Shown here piece by piece: positions 1 through 6,865 of a DNA stretch of 64,000 nt. The stretch covers positions 1 to 64,000 of the forward strand of contig JAFGKG010000219.1 of the NCBI GenBank assembly GCA_016928715.1, in the 5' to 3' direction. Under the pieces are notes generated by a model. That model searched no databases. It saw nothing but the letters and a program-made list of their open reading frames with translations, and was not told the DNA's origin. This stretch comes from Chloroflexia bacterium. GTDB taxonomy: Bacteria; Chloroflexota; Chloroflexia; DTKN01. Position numbers and translations under genes: made by a program. Numbering within the stretch: the stretch's first letter is position 1; every line of letters starts with the position of its first letter.

Positions 1-138
1 ACCCAGACGACCAACCCGCCGCCCAAGCCCAGCGGTTCCAGCCGCAGCGGGGGCGGCGGTGGCAGCGGCGGCTGCGCCTGTGCCTGCGCCTGTGCCTGTG
101 CCGGGTGCGCCTGTGCCTGTGCCGGGGGGGGGAGGTAA
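1..138 (+). CDS. 3' end of a CDS truncated by the window edge; C-terminus ...TQTTNPPPKPSGSSRSGGGGGSGGCACACACACAGCACACAGGGR*
   Basis: Frame 1 is open from base 1 to TAA at 136-138. It has no A at third codon positions before the stop, and its composition (Pro/Ser linker, Gly run, Cys-Ala alternation) looks like a real low-complexity tail. Missing from the ORF track because the start lies outside the window. Confidence 0.7.
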   Translation, partial: TQTTNPPPKPSGSSRSGGGGGSGGCACACACACAGCACACAGGGR

Positions 139-149
139 GCGGTTCGATC

Positions 150-300
150 AACCGCAAAGACACAAGGTACTGGAACCACAAAGGCTCAAAGGCACCAAGA
201 AAGGAACGTAAGGACCTTTGCGTTGGTGTCTTTGCGGTCGCTGGAATGAAGGATCCTCGTGCCTTGGTGCCTTTGTGGTTGATAGAACCAAGAGTCTTTC
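150..300. repeat. Imperfect inverted repeat with AACCACAAAGG / CCTTTGTGGTT arms (174-184 and 270-280) and further complementary segments
   Basis: Direct reading: AAGGCACCAAG near 190-200 also pairs with CTTGGTGCCTT near 263-273. The same arms occur at 17499-17588. Confidence 0.6.
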
Positions 301-319
301 TGTGCCTTAGGTGACCTGG

Positions 320-1681
320 ATGGCTTTCCTCGATCGGCTGCGCGACATCATGCGGGCGCCACAGAAGCTTCCCCCCGGCCTGCACGCCTACGAGCGGCGG
401 GATGGGGCCGGCGGGCGGGTCAAGGTGCACCTGCGCCTGGAGGCCGATGGCCGCGGGCTGCTGGCGATCAACGCCTCCCGCATCCTGCACCTGAACCAGA
501 CCGCCGCCGAGTACGCCCGCCTGGTGCTGGAGGAGGTGCCCGAGGCGGAGGCGGTCGATATCGTCTGCCGGCGCTACCAGGTGGAAGAGAACACCGCGCG
601 GGCCGATTTCCGCCGCATGGACCAGCAGCTGCAGGCCCTCCTCCAACCCGAGGGGGGCACCTGCCCGGTCCTGGGGCTGGACCTGGAGCGGGTCGACCCC
701 TTTTCGGTGCCCTTGAGCGCGCCGTACCGCATGGACCTGGCCCTGACCTACCGCTGCCAGAACGCCTGCCCGCACTGCTACGTGGCCCGCTCGGCGGAGC
801 ATCCCGAGCTGGACACGACCACCTGGCAGGCCATCCTAGAACGGGTCTGGGAGCTGGGCATCCCCCACGTCTGCTTTACCGGCGGCGAAGCCACCCTGCG
901 GGCCGACCTGCCCGAACTGGTGGCCTATGCCGAGAATCTGGGCTTGGTGACGGGCCTCTTGACCAACGGCCGGCGGCTGTGCAGCCGCACCTACGTCCAG
1001 AGCCTGATCCAGGCCGGCCTGGACCACGTCCAGATCACCATCGAGTCGGCCGAGGAAGCCGTGCACGATGCCATGGTGGGCGCCCCCGGGGCCTGGCAAG
1101 AGACCGTGCAGGGCATCCGCAACACCTGCGAGGCCGGCCTCTATACAACCACCAACACGACCATCACCCGCCAGAACGTGGCCGGGCTGCAGGGGACCAT
1201 CGCCCTGATCGCCTCGCTGGGCGTGCCCACCTTTGCCTGCAACAGCCTCATCTACAGCGGCGGGGGGACGAGTGTCGGCACCGGTTTTCGCGAGGGCGAG
1301 CTGGCACCGGTCCTGGAACGGGTGCGCGAGTGGGCCGCCGAGCACGGCCTGCGCTTGGTCTGGTACACCCCCACCCAATACTGCGCCCTTTCACCACTGC
1401 AGTTAGAGCTGGGCGTCAAGGCCTGCACCGCCGCACTCTACAATATGTGCGTGGAGCCGGACGGGGCCGTGATCCCCTGCCAGAGCTACTACCACGCCTT
1501 GGGCCACATCCTGCAGGATTCCTGGGAGAGCATCTGGAACCACGATCTGGCCCAAGGCCTGCGGGAACGGCGCTATGTGCCGGCCAAGTGCCGGGACTGC
1601 CCCGAACTGCCGCTCTGCGGCGGGGGCTGCCCGTTGTATTTGCTCCACCAGCAGGAGAATGAGGGTTCAGATACCGCCTAG
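320..1681 (+). CDS. Radical SAM protein with PqqD-like N-terminal region and C-terminal SPASM-like Cys-rich domain
   Basis: CxxxCxxC motif (TYRCQNACPHCYVA), FTGGE motif, C-terminal CVEPDGAVIPCQSYYHALG...CRDCPELPLCGGGCP. ATG at 320 has an AGGTG just upstream and matches the paralogue's N-terminus (MAFLDRL/MSFVQKI). Confidence 0.9.
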   Translation: MAFLDRLRDIMRAPQKLPPGLHAYERRDGAGGRVKVHLRLEADGRGLLAINASRILHLNQTAAEYARLVLEEVPEAEAVDIVCRRYQVEENTARADFRRMDQQLQALLQPEGGTCPVLGLDLERVDPFSVPLSAPYRMDLALTYRCQNACPHCYVARSAEHPELDTTTWQAILERVWELGIPHVCFTGGEATLRADLPELVAYAENLGLVTGLLTNGRRLCSRTYVQSLIQAGLDHVQITIESAEEAVHDAMVGAPGAWQETVQGIRNTCEAGLYTTTNTTITRQNVAGLQGTIALIASLGVPTFACNSLIYSGGGTSVGTGFREGELAPVLERVREWAAEHGLRLVWYTPTQYCALSPLQLELGVKACTAALYNMCVEPDGAVIPCQSYYHALGHILQDSWESIWNHDLAQGLRERRYVPAKCRDCPELPLCGGGCPLYLLHQQENEGSDTA

Positions 1682-1704
1682 ATAAAACTTGGAGGAAACG
1701 GCCC

Positions 1705-2925
1705 ATGTCCTTTGTGCAAAAAATCAAAGACTGGTTTTCCCCCCCACAGCCCCTCTCTCAGGAGATGCTGCACTACCAGACCCCGCCGGATGCCGAGCAG
1801 CAGTACCGCCTGCACCTGCGGGTAGAGCCAGACGGCCACGGCCTGCTAGTGGTCAACGCAGCCACCGTGTTGCACCTGAACCAGACCGCCACCGAGTACG
1901 CCCACCTCCTGCTGCAGGGCGCCGACGAGGAAGAGGCCGTGCGCACAATGACGCAGCGCTACCGGGTGGGGGCCAGCCAGGTCCAGGCCGACTATCGGCA
2001 CCTGCGCGACCAGATCACCACCCTGGCCACCTCGGTGGATCTCTGCCCGGTGACCTACCTGGATATGGAGCGGGTCGAGCCCTTTTCGGCAGCGACGAGC
2101 GCCCCTTATCGGGTGGACCTGGCCTTGACCTACCGCCTGGACGAGAGCGGCACACTCGATCCGGAGGCCCGCCGGCGAGTGGATCGCGAATACAGTGCCC
2201 AGGAGTGGCAGCAGGTGCTAGAACGCCTCTGGAACGTGGGCGTGCCCCACGTGACCTTTACCGGGGGCGAACCCACCCAGCGCAAGGACCTGGTGGACCT
2301 GGTCCGCCACGCCGAGAATCTGGGCCTGGTCAGCGGCCTGCTCACGGACGGCCGCCGCCTGAGCGATTGGGATTACCTGGAGCGACTGCTGCTGGCGGGC
2401 CTGGATCACCTGCAGATTACCCTGGCCTCGCACATTCCCGAACTGCACGACCGCCTGGTGGGCCGGCCGGGGGCCTGGGAGGAGACCATGGCCGGCCTGC
2501 GCAATGCCCGCATCGGGGATATCTATGTGGTGGCCCACGTCGTGGTCGGCCCGGAGAACGCCCCCAGCATCGCCGAGACCGTGGCCTACCTAGCCGAACA
2601 GGGCGTGCCCGCGTTGGCCCTGAGCAGTCCTCTGCGCGGCGCCCCGGAGGAGACGCGGGCCGGCCTGGAAGCGGCCCTGGAGCGGGCGCAAGAGGCGGCC
2701 CACACCCACGGACTGACCCTGGTCTGGGACCTGGCCGCACCCTACTCCCAGGTCAACCCGGTGGAACTAGAGACCGAGCTGTCGTCGGAGCAAATCATCC
2801 GCCAGTATCTCTACATCGAGCCGGATGGCGACGTACTGCCGGCCCAGGGCTACAATGCGGTCCTGGGCAACATCCTGCGCGATCCGTGGAAGGCGATTTG
2901 GGAGAATCCCGGCCGCAGATCATGA
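1705..2925 (+). CDS. Degenerate radical SAM paralogue lacking the CxxxCxxC and SPASM cysteines
   Basis: Co-linear with the preceding protein (VLHLNQTATEYA, VDLALTYRLDE, HVTFTGGEPT, GLLTDGRRL, YIEPDGDVLPAQGYNAVLGNILRDPWKAIW). Only one Cys is visible in the translation. Confidence 0.85.
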   Translation: MSFVQKIKDWFSPPQPLSQEMLHYQTPPDAEQQYRLHLRVEPDGHGLLVVNAATVLHLNQTATEYAHLLLQGADEEEAVRTMTQRYRVGASQVQADYRHLRDQITTLATSVDLCPVTYLDMERVEPFSAATSAPYRVDLALTYRLDESGTLDPEARRRVDREYSAQEWQQVLERLWNVGVPHVTFTGGEPTQRKDLVDLVRHAENLGLVSGLLTDGRRLSDWDYLERLLLAGLDHLQITLASHIPELHDRLVGRPGAWEETMAGLRNARIGDIYVVAHVVVGPENAPSIAETVAYLAEQGVPALALSSPLRGAPEETRAGLEAALERAQEAAHTHGLTLVWDLAAPYSQVNPVELETELSSEQIIRQYLYIEPDGDVLPAQGYNAVLGNILRDPWKAIWENPGRRS

Positions 2926-4549: not shown

Positions 4550-6865
4550 CTACGCCTCTCCGCCTCCCTGCGGCAAGGGAGACTCCAACACCGTCCGCAC
4601 CTTTCGCGCCAACTCTTGGGGAGTGAAGGGTTTTTGCACGAGCTCCGAGCCCGGTTGGAGCATGCCGTGCTGGGCGATAAAGTGGTTGGTATAACCGGAC
4701 ATGTAGAGAACGCGCAGTTCGGGGTAGCGCTGGCGGATCTTGTCGGCCAGGACGAGTCCGCTCATGTGGGGCATGACGACGTCCGTGAGCAGTAAATCGA
4801 CAGCTCCCTCGCAAGAGGCCACCATATCCAGGGCTTGGTCGCCGTTCTCCGCTTCCAGAATTTGGTATCCCAGGCGGCGCAGGATGCGGGTGGTCAATCG
4901 CCGCACCATGTCGCTGTCCTCGACCACCAGGATGGTTTCGCTACCCCCCGACCAAGTTGCCTGCTGCCGCAGTGGCGTCTCGGGCTGTACGACTTGATCG
5001 ACCCGGGGCAGGTAAATCTTGAAGGTAGTGCCCTGGCCGACTTCGGAATAGACCTGGATGTGGCCGTTGAACTGCTTGACGATGCCATAGACGATGGCCA
5101 GGCCCAGGCCGGTGCCCTCCTCTTTGGTCGTAAAAAAGGGCTCAAAGATGTGCTCCTGCACCTCGGGGAAAATTCCAGACCCGGTATCACTGATCGATAG
5201 CAGGATGTAATCGCCGGCCTGTACCTGGGCGTGGTGCCGGGTGTAGGATTCGTCCAGTTCGACGTTGGCCGTTTCCAGGGTCAGCAGGCCCCCGGAGGGC
5301 ATGGCCTCGCGCGCGTTCACGACCAGGTTGACAATGACCTGCTCCATCTGCTGGGGATCCATACGCGCATTGCCCAGTTGGGGGTCCGGGATCACCTTGA
5401 GCCGAATGTCCTCCCCAATCAGGCGCTGCAGCATCTGTTCCAGTCCCTGCAGCACATGGTTCAAGTTCACCACGCGCAGGCTGATCACCTGACGCCGGCT
5501 AAAGGTCAGCAGTTGTTGGGTGAGCTGGGAGGCCTTGACCACCGCCTCGCGGATGGCCTCGGCCTCGTGTCGGAGGGGGTCGTTGATTTTGAGCGAGCCC
5601 AGCAGCAGCTCGCTGTAGCCGCCGATGGCGGTGAGCAAGTTGTTGAAATCGTGGGCCACGCCGCCGGCCAGTCGGCCGATGGCCTCCATCTTTTGGGCCT
5701 GGCGAAGCTGGGCCTCCAGTTGTCGGCGTTCGCTGACGTCGCGGACGACGACCAGCACGGCCGGCCGGCCCTCATAGTTCAGCGCGCTGGCCTGGACCTC
5801 GACGTTGACAATGCTGCCGTCCTTGCGTAGAAAACGCTCCTCCTGCCAGGGCACCGTGCAGCCGGCGGCCAAATGCTTCATCCGTTCCAACACCTGCGGG
5901 TGATCCTCTGGATGCACGGCCTCCAGCGCCGGCCGGCCGAGCATTTCCTGGTCCGAGTCGTAACCCAGCATGTCAACCCCGGCCTGGTTGATCATGCACA
6001 GCCGCCCGTCCTGATGGATGGCCAGCCCCAGGGGCATAAATTCCACCAGATGGCGGTAGCGCTCCTCCGACTCGGAGAGGGCTTCCAAGGCCTGTTTGTG
6101 CACGGTGATATCGCGTACCACCCCCTGGGTAGCCAGGCCGCCGCGGTAGGGGATGTAGGAAACGGAGGTCTCGGCCTGAAACTCGCGTCCACCGGCGGTC
6201 AGCGCCGTAAATTCGTAGCGCAGGGGCACCGGTTCACCCCGGTCGATCTTGTTGTCCCGCTCTTGAATCATGGGCCGGCTTTTGGACGCGATCAATTCCA
6301 AAAAGCTGAAATCCGGCGAACGCACCTGCTCGCGGCTGATTTCGAACATTTCCTCAAAGCGCGTGTTGGTCAGCACAAAACGACCATCAAAGAGCAGGTA
6401 AATCCCATCATTGGACTGTTCAAACAGGGTGCGGTAGCGTTCCTCGCTCTCCCGCAGGGCGTTCCAGGTCTGCCACCGCTCCGTAACGTCCTGGGCCACC
6501 AGGAGGGCCGCGGAGGCCTGGCCCTGCTCATCCAAAATGGGCGAGATCCGTCCCTGGAACCACCTTTCCTCATCGGCGATGGGCAACATGTACTCGATGG
6601 TAGTGACCTGACCCGTTTCGATGGTCTTGCGCACGGCCGTATGAAAAAAGTCCGCCTCCTCGGGGGGAAAGAGCTCGTAGGGGGTCTTGCCGATAATGTC
6701 CTCCGCAGGGCGGTAGAGCAGATGCTGGCGGGTGGGGGCAACATCCAAGTAGCGGCCATCTCGACCAATGACAATGATGATATCCTCCATCGCCTGGAGA
6801 AAGGAGCGCAGGCGACGAACTTGATGTTCGGGAGAGCCTTCCGGCATCGTTTTCGCTTGGGGCAT
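4550..6865 (-). CDS. Multi-PAS hybrid sensor histidine kinase with C-terminal receiver domain
   Basis: PAS repeats, [14 protein letters not shown] (H-box), [10 protein letters not shown] (N-box), [13 protein letters not shown] (G-box), and receiver [10 protein letters not shown]...[12 protein letters not shown]...QKPFT. Start set at [10 protein letters not shown], because the longer ORF runs into the next gene. Confidence 0.9.

Follow-up and report, generated by a model that had tools for sequence, protein, structure and literature searches.

A Cys-Ala tail at the C-terminus of a membrane protein is usually encoded beside a radical SAM/SPASM enzyme in many anaerobic bacteria from a range of phyla and in Asgard archaea, and modification of this tail by a dedicated radical SAM/SPASM maturase is, in our judgement, the probable explanation for the whole arrangement. 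The arrangement stands at the beginning of the window (the whole stretch of DNA that was analysed, 64,000 nucleotides of a Chloroflexia contig), where the 3' end of a tail-protein gene is followed by the enzyme gene (ORF1) and by a paralogue without Fe-S ligands (ORF2) (Table 1). No Pfam or NCBIfam model covers the tail-enzyme system, and searches of the open-access literature (PMC) gave no paper on DUF2207 with radical SAM, on CACACACAG, or on an ACGX or Cys-Ala system. This points to a widespread radical-SAM modification system that looks undescribed.

Table 1. Features at the beginning of the window
Feature	Position (nt)	Strand	Basis or remark
Tail-protein gene, 3' end	1..138	+	start cut off by contig start; carries putative recognition motif, Gly/Ser linker, Cys-Ala tail and stop
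Putative recognition motif TNPPPKP	10..30	+	inside tail-protein gene
Cys-Ala tail CACACACACA-G-CACACA-GGGR	73..135	+	sequence; kept in 144 loci despite synonymous variation
Spacer with two inverted-repeat pairs (143-163/226-246, 174-200/254-280)	139..319	+	
Catalytic radical SAM/SPASM enzyme with N-terminal PqqD/RRE (ORF1)	320..1681	+	Pfam; ATG 320, alternative start GTG 311
PqqD/RRE-like domain of enzyme	458..637	+	Pfam PqqD 3.1e-06; model E23-E61, H63-H111
CxxxCxxC (CQNACPHC), radical-SAM [4Fe-4S] ligands	755..778	+	
SPASM region, C372-x12-G-x4-C390 ... CxxCx5Cx3C, auxiliary Fe-S ligands	1424..1630	+	Pfam SPASM 1.4e-10
Fe-S-less paralogue, pseudo-radical-SAM (ORF2)	1705..2925	+	RRE and barrel with GGE kept; cluster cysteines and C-terminal SPASM Cys region gone

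The tail gene of the window and its sister copy

Translated in frame 1, bases 1-138 give ...TQTTNPPPKPSGSSRSGGGGGSGG-CACACACACAGCACACAGGGR-stop, in agreement with the initial annotation. The coding sequence that closes at position 138 ends in frame as ...TTNPPPKPSGSSRSGGGGGSGG-CACACACACA-G-CACACA-GGGR-stop, and ORF1 and ORF2 follow it. The distances reported earlier, 181 nt from the tail gene to ATG 320 and 23 nt between the two ORFs, were reproduced. An out-of-frame, untranslated tail was ruled out by the reading frame at the listed loci and by synonymous DNA variation. The spacer contains repeat arms of 21 and 27 nt, about 85% complementary; it is probably a dispersed REP/MITE-like element and is outside the mechanism.

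The first base of the window is also the first base of its contig (C64), so that the tail gene is truncated by the assembly. Retrieval of the upstream sequence, which had been proposed, succeeded only by way of a sister copy: when the assembly of the metagenome-assembled genome (MAG) was searched for the 5' half of the window's own gene, only a copy on contig C69 and the stub were found. The tail protein on C69 is complete (about 566 aa), starts with MRPKHLARL and ends with GGGSGCACACACACAGCACACAGGGR. The C69 enzyme is 64% identical to ORF1 and has lost its start at the contig end, and the spacer of its locus is short, in contrast to the repeat-bearing spacer on C64. Both contigs end within homologous copies of one gene pair, with the ends facing each other. 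A tandem duplication breaking the assembly would fit this; alternatively, with 5% contamination in the MAG, a strain mixture may be the cause.

Conservation and spread of the tail

A DNA pattern for CACACAGCACA alone was employed to scan the GTDB genome collection (85,000 species), which gave at least 117 loci. In 79 of the first 80 loci the motif closes the protein as ...CACACAGCACACA(CA)GGGR-stop; in the one exception, from Hungatella, it was followed by GGGRAGCSQKDFY.... The invariant form of the C-terminus is CACACA...GCACACA(CA)GGGR-stop on a DUF2207-like membrane protein, whereas the protein bodies are only 18-51% identical. Among the matches listed, at least 83 came from Chloroflexota, and the others from ten or more further bacterial phyla and from four lineages of Asgard. 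These bacteria were Fermentibacterota, Planctomycetota, Acidobacteriota, Coatesbacteria, Edwardsbacteria, Armatimonadota, Actinomycetota, Zixibacteria, Myxococcota, Hydrogenedentota, Chrysiogenota, Bacillota and Aminicenantes; the archaea were Hodarch-, Heimdall-, Loki- and Sigynarchaeota. Many loci come from MAGs, and cultured genomes carry the system too (Bellilinea caldifistulae, Levilinea saccharolytica, Ornatilinea apprima, Leptolinea sp. HRD-7 and Hungatella hathewayi).

Over 144 loci (the locus counts hold a few duplicates, because some organisms entered via two collections), the 11-aa searched core was encoded by 129 different 33-nt sequences with a mean third-position identity of 0.46. 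The residues past this core, which lie outside the pattern, read ...CA(CA)GGGR-stop in 142 of the 144 loci. A reversed control pattern gave 0 matches in 399 genomes. The synonymous codon variety, the preserved but unsearched GGGR ending and the empty control together indicate that the tail is not a product of chance. The window by itself, as one truncated case, would agree with a low-complexity tail lying by accident beside an unrelated enzyme, but all of the conservation and linkage data contradict this explanation; it is refuted here, and its probability is negligible.

Linkage of the tail to the enzyme

A search with ORF1 matched 30 of 399 Chloroflexota genomes, and in the type A genomes of that search the protein encoded directly upstream of the enzyme ends in a Cys-Ala tail. 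Without exception, the 27 of the 399 genomes that match the tail pattern are also the 27 that have an enzyme with an E value below 1e-100 (Fisher 1.6e-42; the genomes are not independent and represent 13 of 225 genera). In the 80 loci analysed (of at least 117), an enzyme-family gene, catalytic or Fe-S-less, adjoins the tail gene in 68: it lies immediately downstream in 63 and immediately upstream in the other 5, which have the type C order of enzyme, second paralogue and tail protein. No enzyme-family gene was present in the 8-kb slice of the other 12 loci, and all 12 genomes, searched whole, hold a family member, mostly with E below 1e-120. Partial or divergent matches were obtained for G508 (2.1e-78), G512 (2.6e-63) and G514 (6.7e-56), and the sole match of G514 looks like the Fe-S-less copy. 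These results showed that the tail is conserved and genomically linked to a radical-SAM gene across phyla. A tail lacking either property in relatives, named in the initial annotation as grounds for refutation, was looked for and not encountered.

Among 200 genomes of the Hungatella family, 12 carried a (CA)nGGGRAGC(S/T)xKDFY tail, and this Bacillota GGGRAGC variant had a radical-SAM gene immediately upstream in 12/12. The Bacillota scaffold has a homologous ectodomain, several members with a cytosolic zinc ribbon of their own, and Bacillota tails such as CAHSSCACACAHSCACACACACAGGGRAGC join Cys-Ala and AC-x-x motifs. Type B tails consist of AC-x-x repeats on homologous scaffold proteins; in four genomes they stand beside an enzyme 31-36% identical to ORF1, with no adjacent paralogue. 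The type B pattern scan gave three in-frame matches, all from the same 399-genome sample. HSAC-type tails also occur in the system. AC-H-x repeat matches in G311 and G427, with neither a homologous scaffold nor a radical-SAM neighbour, were discarded as chance. In one locus (L068, G481:C163) the intact enzyme is followed, at 4614-4844, by a 76-aa fragment left from a second copy.

The radical SAM/SPASM enzyme

ORF1 had been read as a radical SAM protein with a PqqD-like N-terminus and SPASM cysteines, and Pfam found these three domains (PqqD 27.8 bits against a cut-off of 23.4, Radical_SAM 78.5, SPASM 41.7), with CQNACPHC present. The ten Fe-S cysteines are invariant in 27/27 enzyme homologues, which places them in the radical SAM/SPASM superfamily, and ORF1 has, according to both Pfam and the model, the PqqD/RRE domain of RRE-bearing RiPP maturases. 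The nearest solved folds to the AlphaFold model of the enzyme (mean pLDDT 89.1, pTM 0.88) were SkfB, SuiB, CteB, PqqE and anSME, of which the first three, all maturases that modify peptides, were the best; EpeE was also significant. In a profile search against PDB sequences, PqqE and SkfB ranked first. None of the NCBIfam models reached its cut-off for the enzymes. Pfam did not detect the RRE in the Hungatella enzyme, whose tree position is unreliable owing to a long branch. The enzyme of locus L090 carries its own Cys/Gly-rich C-terminal extension, GGGGCSGCSGSCGTGG.

The Fe-S-less paralogue

The description of ORF2 as a co-linear paralogue without cluster cysteines was correct: it has the same three Pfam domains (PqqD, Radical_SAM and SPASM), no CxxxCxxC and only one Cys in all. 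In 27/27 paralogues the ten cluster cysteines are lost and GGE is retained, and the C-terminal Cys region is deleted; the CxxxCxxC expected of the radical SAM/SPASM superfamily was found neither in ORF2 nor in any of the 27. The RRE of the paralogues is slightly more conserved than the barrel (identity 0.55 versus 0.54), while the enzymes show the reverse (0.49 versus 0.68). In the tree, ORF2 groups with its homologues in a single clade (16 rows, support 100) that branches next to the enzyme of the window, and a second Fe-S-poor clade accompanies the type C enzymes.

In nearly all type A Chloroflexota loci the paralogue is intact beside the enzyme. Such copies are limited to Chloroflexota, apart from a second pseudo-enzyme clade in Planctomycetota/Armatimonadota; in the remaining phyla the tail is accompanied only by the enzyme. 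The suggested co-occurrence of CACACA C-termini with both paralogues was therefore upheld for the enzyme, but not for its Fe-S-less copy, which most phyla lack. At four Chloroflexota loci (L090, L096, L099 and L148) the paralogue adjoins the tail gene and the catalytic enzyme found is of type C and encoded elsewhere. In genomes such as G515 and G516, too, the paralogue sits next to the tail gene, and the only catalytic enzyme found is the distant type C form. The type C enzyme found for L090, L099, G515 and G516 is divergently encoded or distant. An orphan paralogue with neither tail protein nor enzyme was present in G244:C35 (L071), in a genome that is 97% complete.

The absence from most phyla, this orphan copy and the faster evolution of the paralogue barrel could be taken to mean that ORF2 is a decaying duplicate without a role. 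We consider this unlikely, given that the paralogue is kept intact in the type A loci, forms a single clade with conserved RRE and GGE, is retained where its catalytic sister was lost and has a counterpart in the second Fe-S-poor clade of type C loci. Its persistence near the tail gene despite a type C enzyme elsewhere, together with the conserved RRE, favours a retained recognition role over decay, and the paralogue is, as judged from sequence conservation, under selection. The earlier idea of a non-catalytic partner is consistent with this conserved Fe-S-less protein and seems to us somewhat the better choice, but such a partner is not general to the system.

The scaffold protein and its recurrent neighbours

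The tail protein (300-680 aa) is composed of an N-terminal signal/TM segment, an ectodomain, further TM segments (by hydropathy, one in type A and three in type C), a cytosolic domain, a helix and a tail predicted to be disordered (pLDDT about 32-36). In 94 of 117 loci among the matches listed, the helix is followed by a TNPxP-type motif that lies 16-29 residues ahead of the searched core. TM parity would place the tail in the cytosol, on the same side as the enzyme. The tail protein had no match by sequence in the PDB, most tail proteins had none in Pfam, and none was found in NCBIfam at E<1, TIGR04222 included.

Two neighbouring genes are found repeatedly in different phyla. One encodes a zinc-ribbon protein with two TM segments and a PKW ending (40 of the 49 loci whose upstream sequence was long enough), the other a Methyltransf_11-type methyltransferase (30 of the 40 loci whose downstream sequence was long enough), which matches strongly in Chloroflexota and Asgard and less well in other groups. 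The MAG of the window has its zinc-ribbon gene on C69 and one methyltransferase match on C113. Neither a peptidase nor an exporter was among the recurrent neighbours of the tail loci, nor did DUF692 appear in the general tally of recurrent neighbours.

Discussion

According to the sequences, the proposed substrate is a protein with a signal/TM anchor, in which a DUF2207-like ectodomain is followed by a TM segment, another domain and a disordered tail that contains nothing but Cys, Ala and Gly apart from a terminal Arg. The RRE of the enzyme would bind the conserved pre-tail segment (FTxxVTxxTNPxP in type A), and the enzyme would then oxidise the tail; the most likely result is several thioether bonds (S-C, sactionine-like) that link Cys to Ala/Gly and span the central Gly turn. 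In Chloroflexota, the Fe-S-less paralogue may serve as a non-catalytic RRE/scaffold partner, and the methyltransferase and the membrane zinc-ribbon protein probably work on the modified tail or together with it. In RumC1, Ala is known to accept a sactionine bond (PMC8172795). We propose Cys-based chemistry because the composition of the tail permits little but C-S bonds, Cys oxidation or Ala/Gly changes. That the enzyme acts on the tail is, from these sequences, highly likely; that the product is a thioether has about an even chance. The most far-reaching form of the proposal is that bacteria and Asgard share an undescribed system in which an invariant (Cys-Ala)n tail is turned into a polycyclic thioether, or into some other oxidised structure, that remains attached to a sensor-like membrane protein and has its function in the cell; the methyltransferase and the zinc-ribbon protein would be partners, joined in some lineages by a dead enzyme as scaffold. 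We put this forward tentatively.

Several observations weigh against parts of this mechanism. Co-occurrence by itself fits any obligate partnership, such as electron transfer or Fe-S delivery; the many Cys-only positions make regioselective crosslinking unusual; and Bacillota and type B tails carry His/Ser/Asp, which argues against a fixed acceptor. The enzyme could act on the tail to give a different product, either formylglycine or another oxidised Cys, as with anSME, or Ala epimerised from L to D. The Cys/Ala/Gly tail suits either, the SPASM cysteine set is complete, and both anSME and EpeE gave significant fold matches. We regard such products as improbable, though worth keeping in mind, because the CxPxR/sulfatase context is absent, the closest matches are SkfB, SuiB and CteB, and EpeE-type epimerases are not known to have the full two-cluster SPASM. 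A lower probability is given to a tail whose thiols bind metal or Fe-S and serve as a cluster or electron donor or a membrane dock, the enzyme having some other target (lipid, tetrapyrrole). A Cys-rich, membrane-anchored protein, the high NCBIfam ranking of the AhbD/NirJ models and the recurrent zinc-ribbon membrane protein would suit that role, but an RRE implies a peptide substrate, metal-binding tails can do with much looser constraints than the exact repeat spacing and terminal GGGR seen here, and enzyme subtype and pre-tail segment co-vary in part (types A and C).

Radical SAM/SPASM maturases are best known for short secreted peptides and cofactors, and the apparent target here is the C-terminus of a resident membrane protein. 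The presence of the same tail in Chloroflexota, Asgard archaea and gut Bacillota implies a core role in the cell, and if maturation of the tail is true, the modified element would function inside the cell rather than being secreted. The recurrent Fe-S-less paralogue is a clear example of a radical SAM enzyme that is no longer catalytic and has become a possible partner. The cultured hosts put the system within direct experimental reach.

Sactipeptide/ranthipeptide maturases (SkfB, AlbA, CteB) share with ORF1 the combination of RRE, radical SAM and SPASM/twitch, act on a Cys-containing ribosomal substrate and include the best fold matches. They differ from the present system in the substrate, which is here the C-terminus of a long membrane protein rather than a short secreted peptide, and a short secreted precursor with exporter/peptidase was not found among the recurrent neighbours. 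PqqE/PqqD is the top NCBIfam and PDB sequence relative and has a PqqD-like domain, but the tail has no Glu/Tyr target, the gene context is different, and PqqE membership (TIGR02109) was rejected at 132 bits against a cut-off of 381. The ACGX-repeat system (TIGR04340), by its name an AC-x-x repeat, resembles the type B tails; the substrate here is instead a membrane-protein tail, and the enzymes scored 47-88 bits against a cut-off of 400. The TIGR04347 pseudo-SAM/SPASM protein of haloarchaea, whose context is tetrapyrrole, is likewise a radical-SAM relative without catalytic cluster ligands, but the window paralogue reached 68 bits against a cut-off of 525. The nearest precedent for a modified Cys-rich membrane-protein tail is found in the TIGR04222 membrane proteins with MNIO (DUF692) enzymes, a different enzyme class. 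These proteins have a Cys-rich low-complexity C-terminal tail beside a modifying enzyme; they occur mostly in Actinomycetota, and the tail is predicted periplasmic, with no invariant motif and looser co-occurrence (PMC12452194). In contrast, the enzyme here is a radical SAM/SPASM protein, the tail is invariant and predicted cytosolic, and TIGR04222 membership was rejected for the tail proteins.

The scaffold resembles DUF2207 (PF09972/PF20990) in its signal/TM architecture and, marginally, in the ectodomain (E 0.0013, one Bacillota member); membership was rejected, the best score being 19.4 bits against a Pfam gathering threshold of 24.4. In a fold search with the model of one tail protein (L003), the ectodomain resembled the beta domains of ribophorin-I and the M1-peptidase N-domain, a lead only, as the whole-chain TM value was low. 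With an ectodomain modelled as similar to OST ribophorin I and with members in Asgard, the family may be relevant to the origin of ribophorin I.
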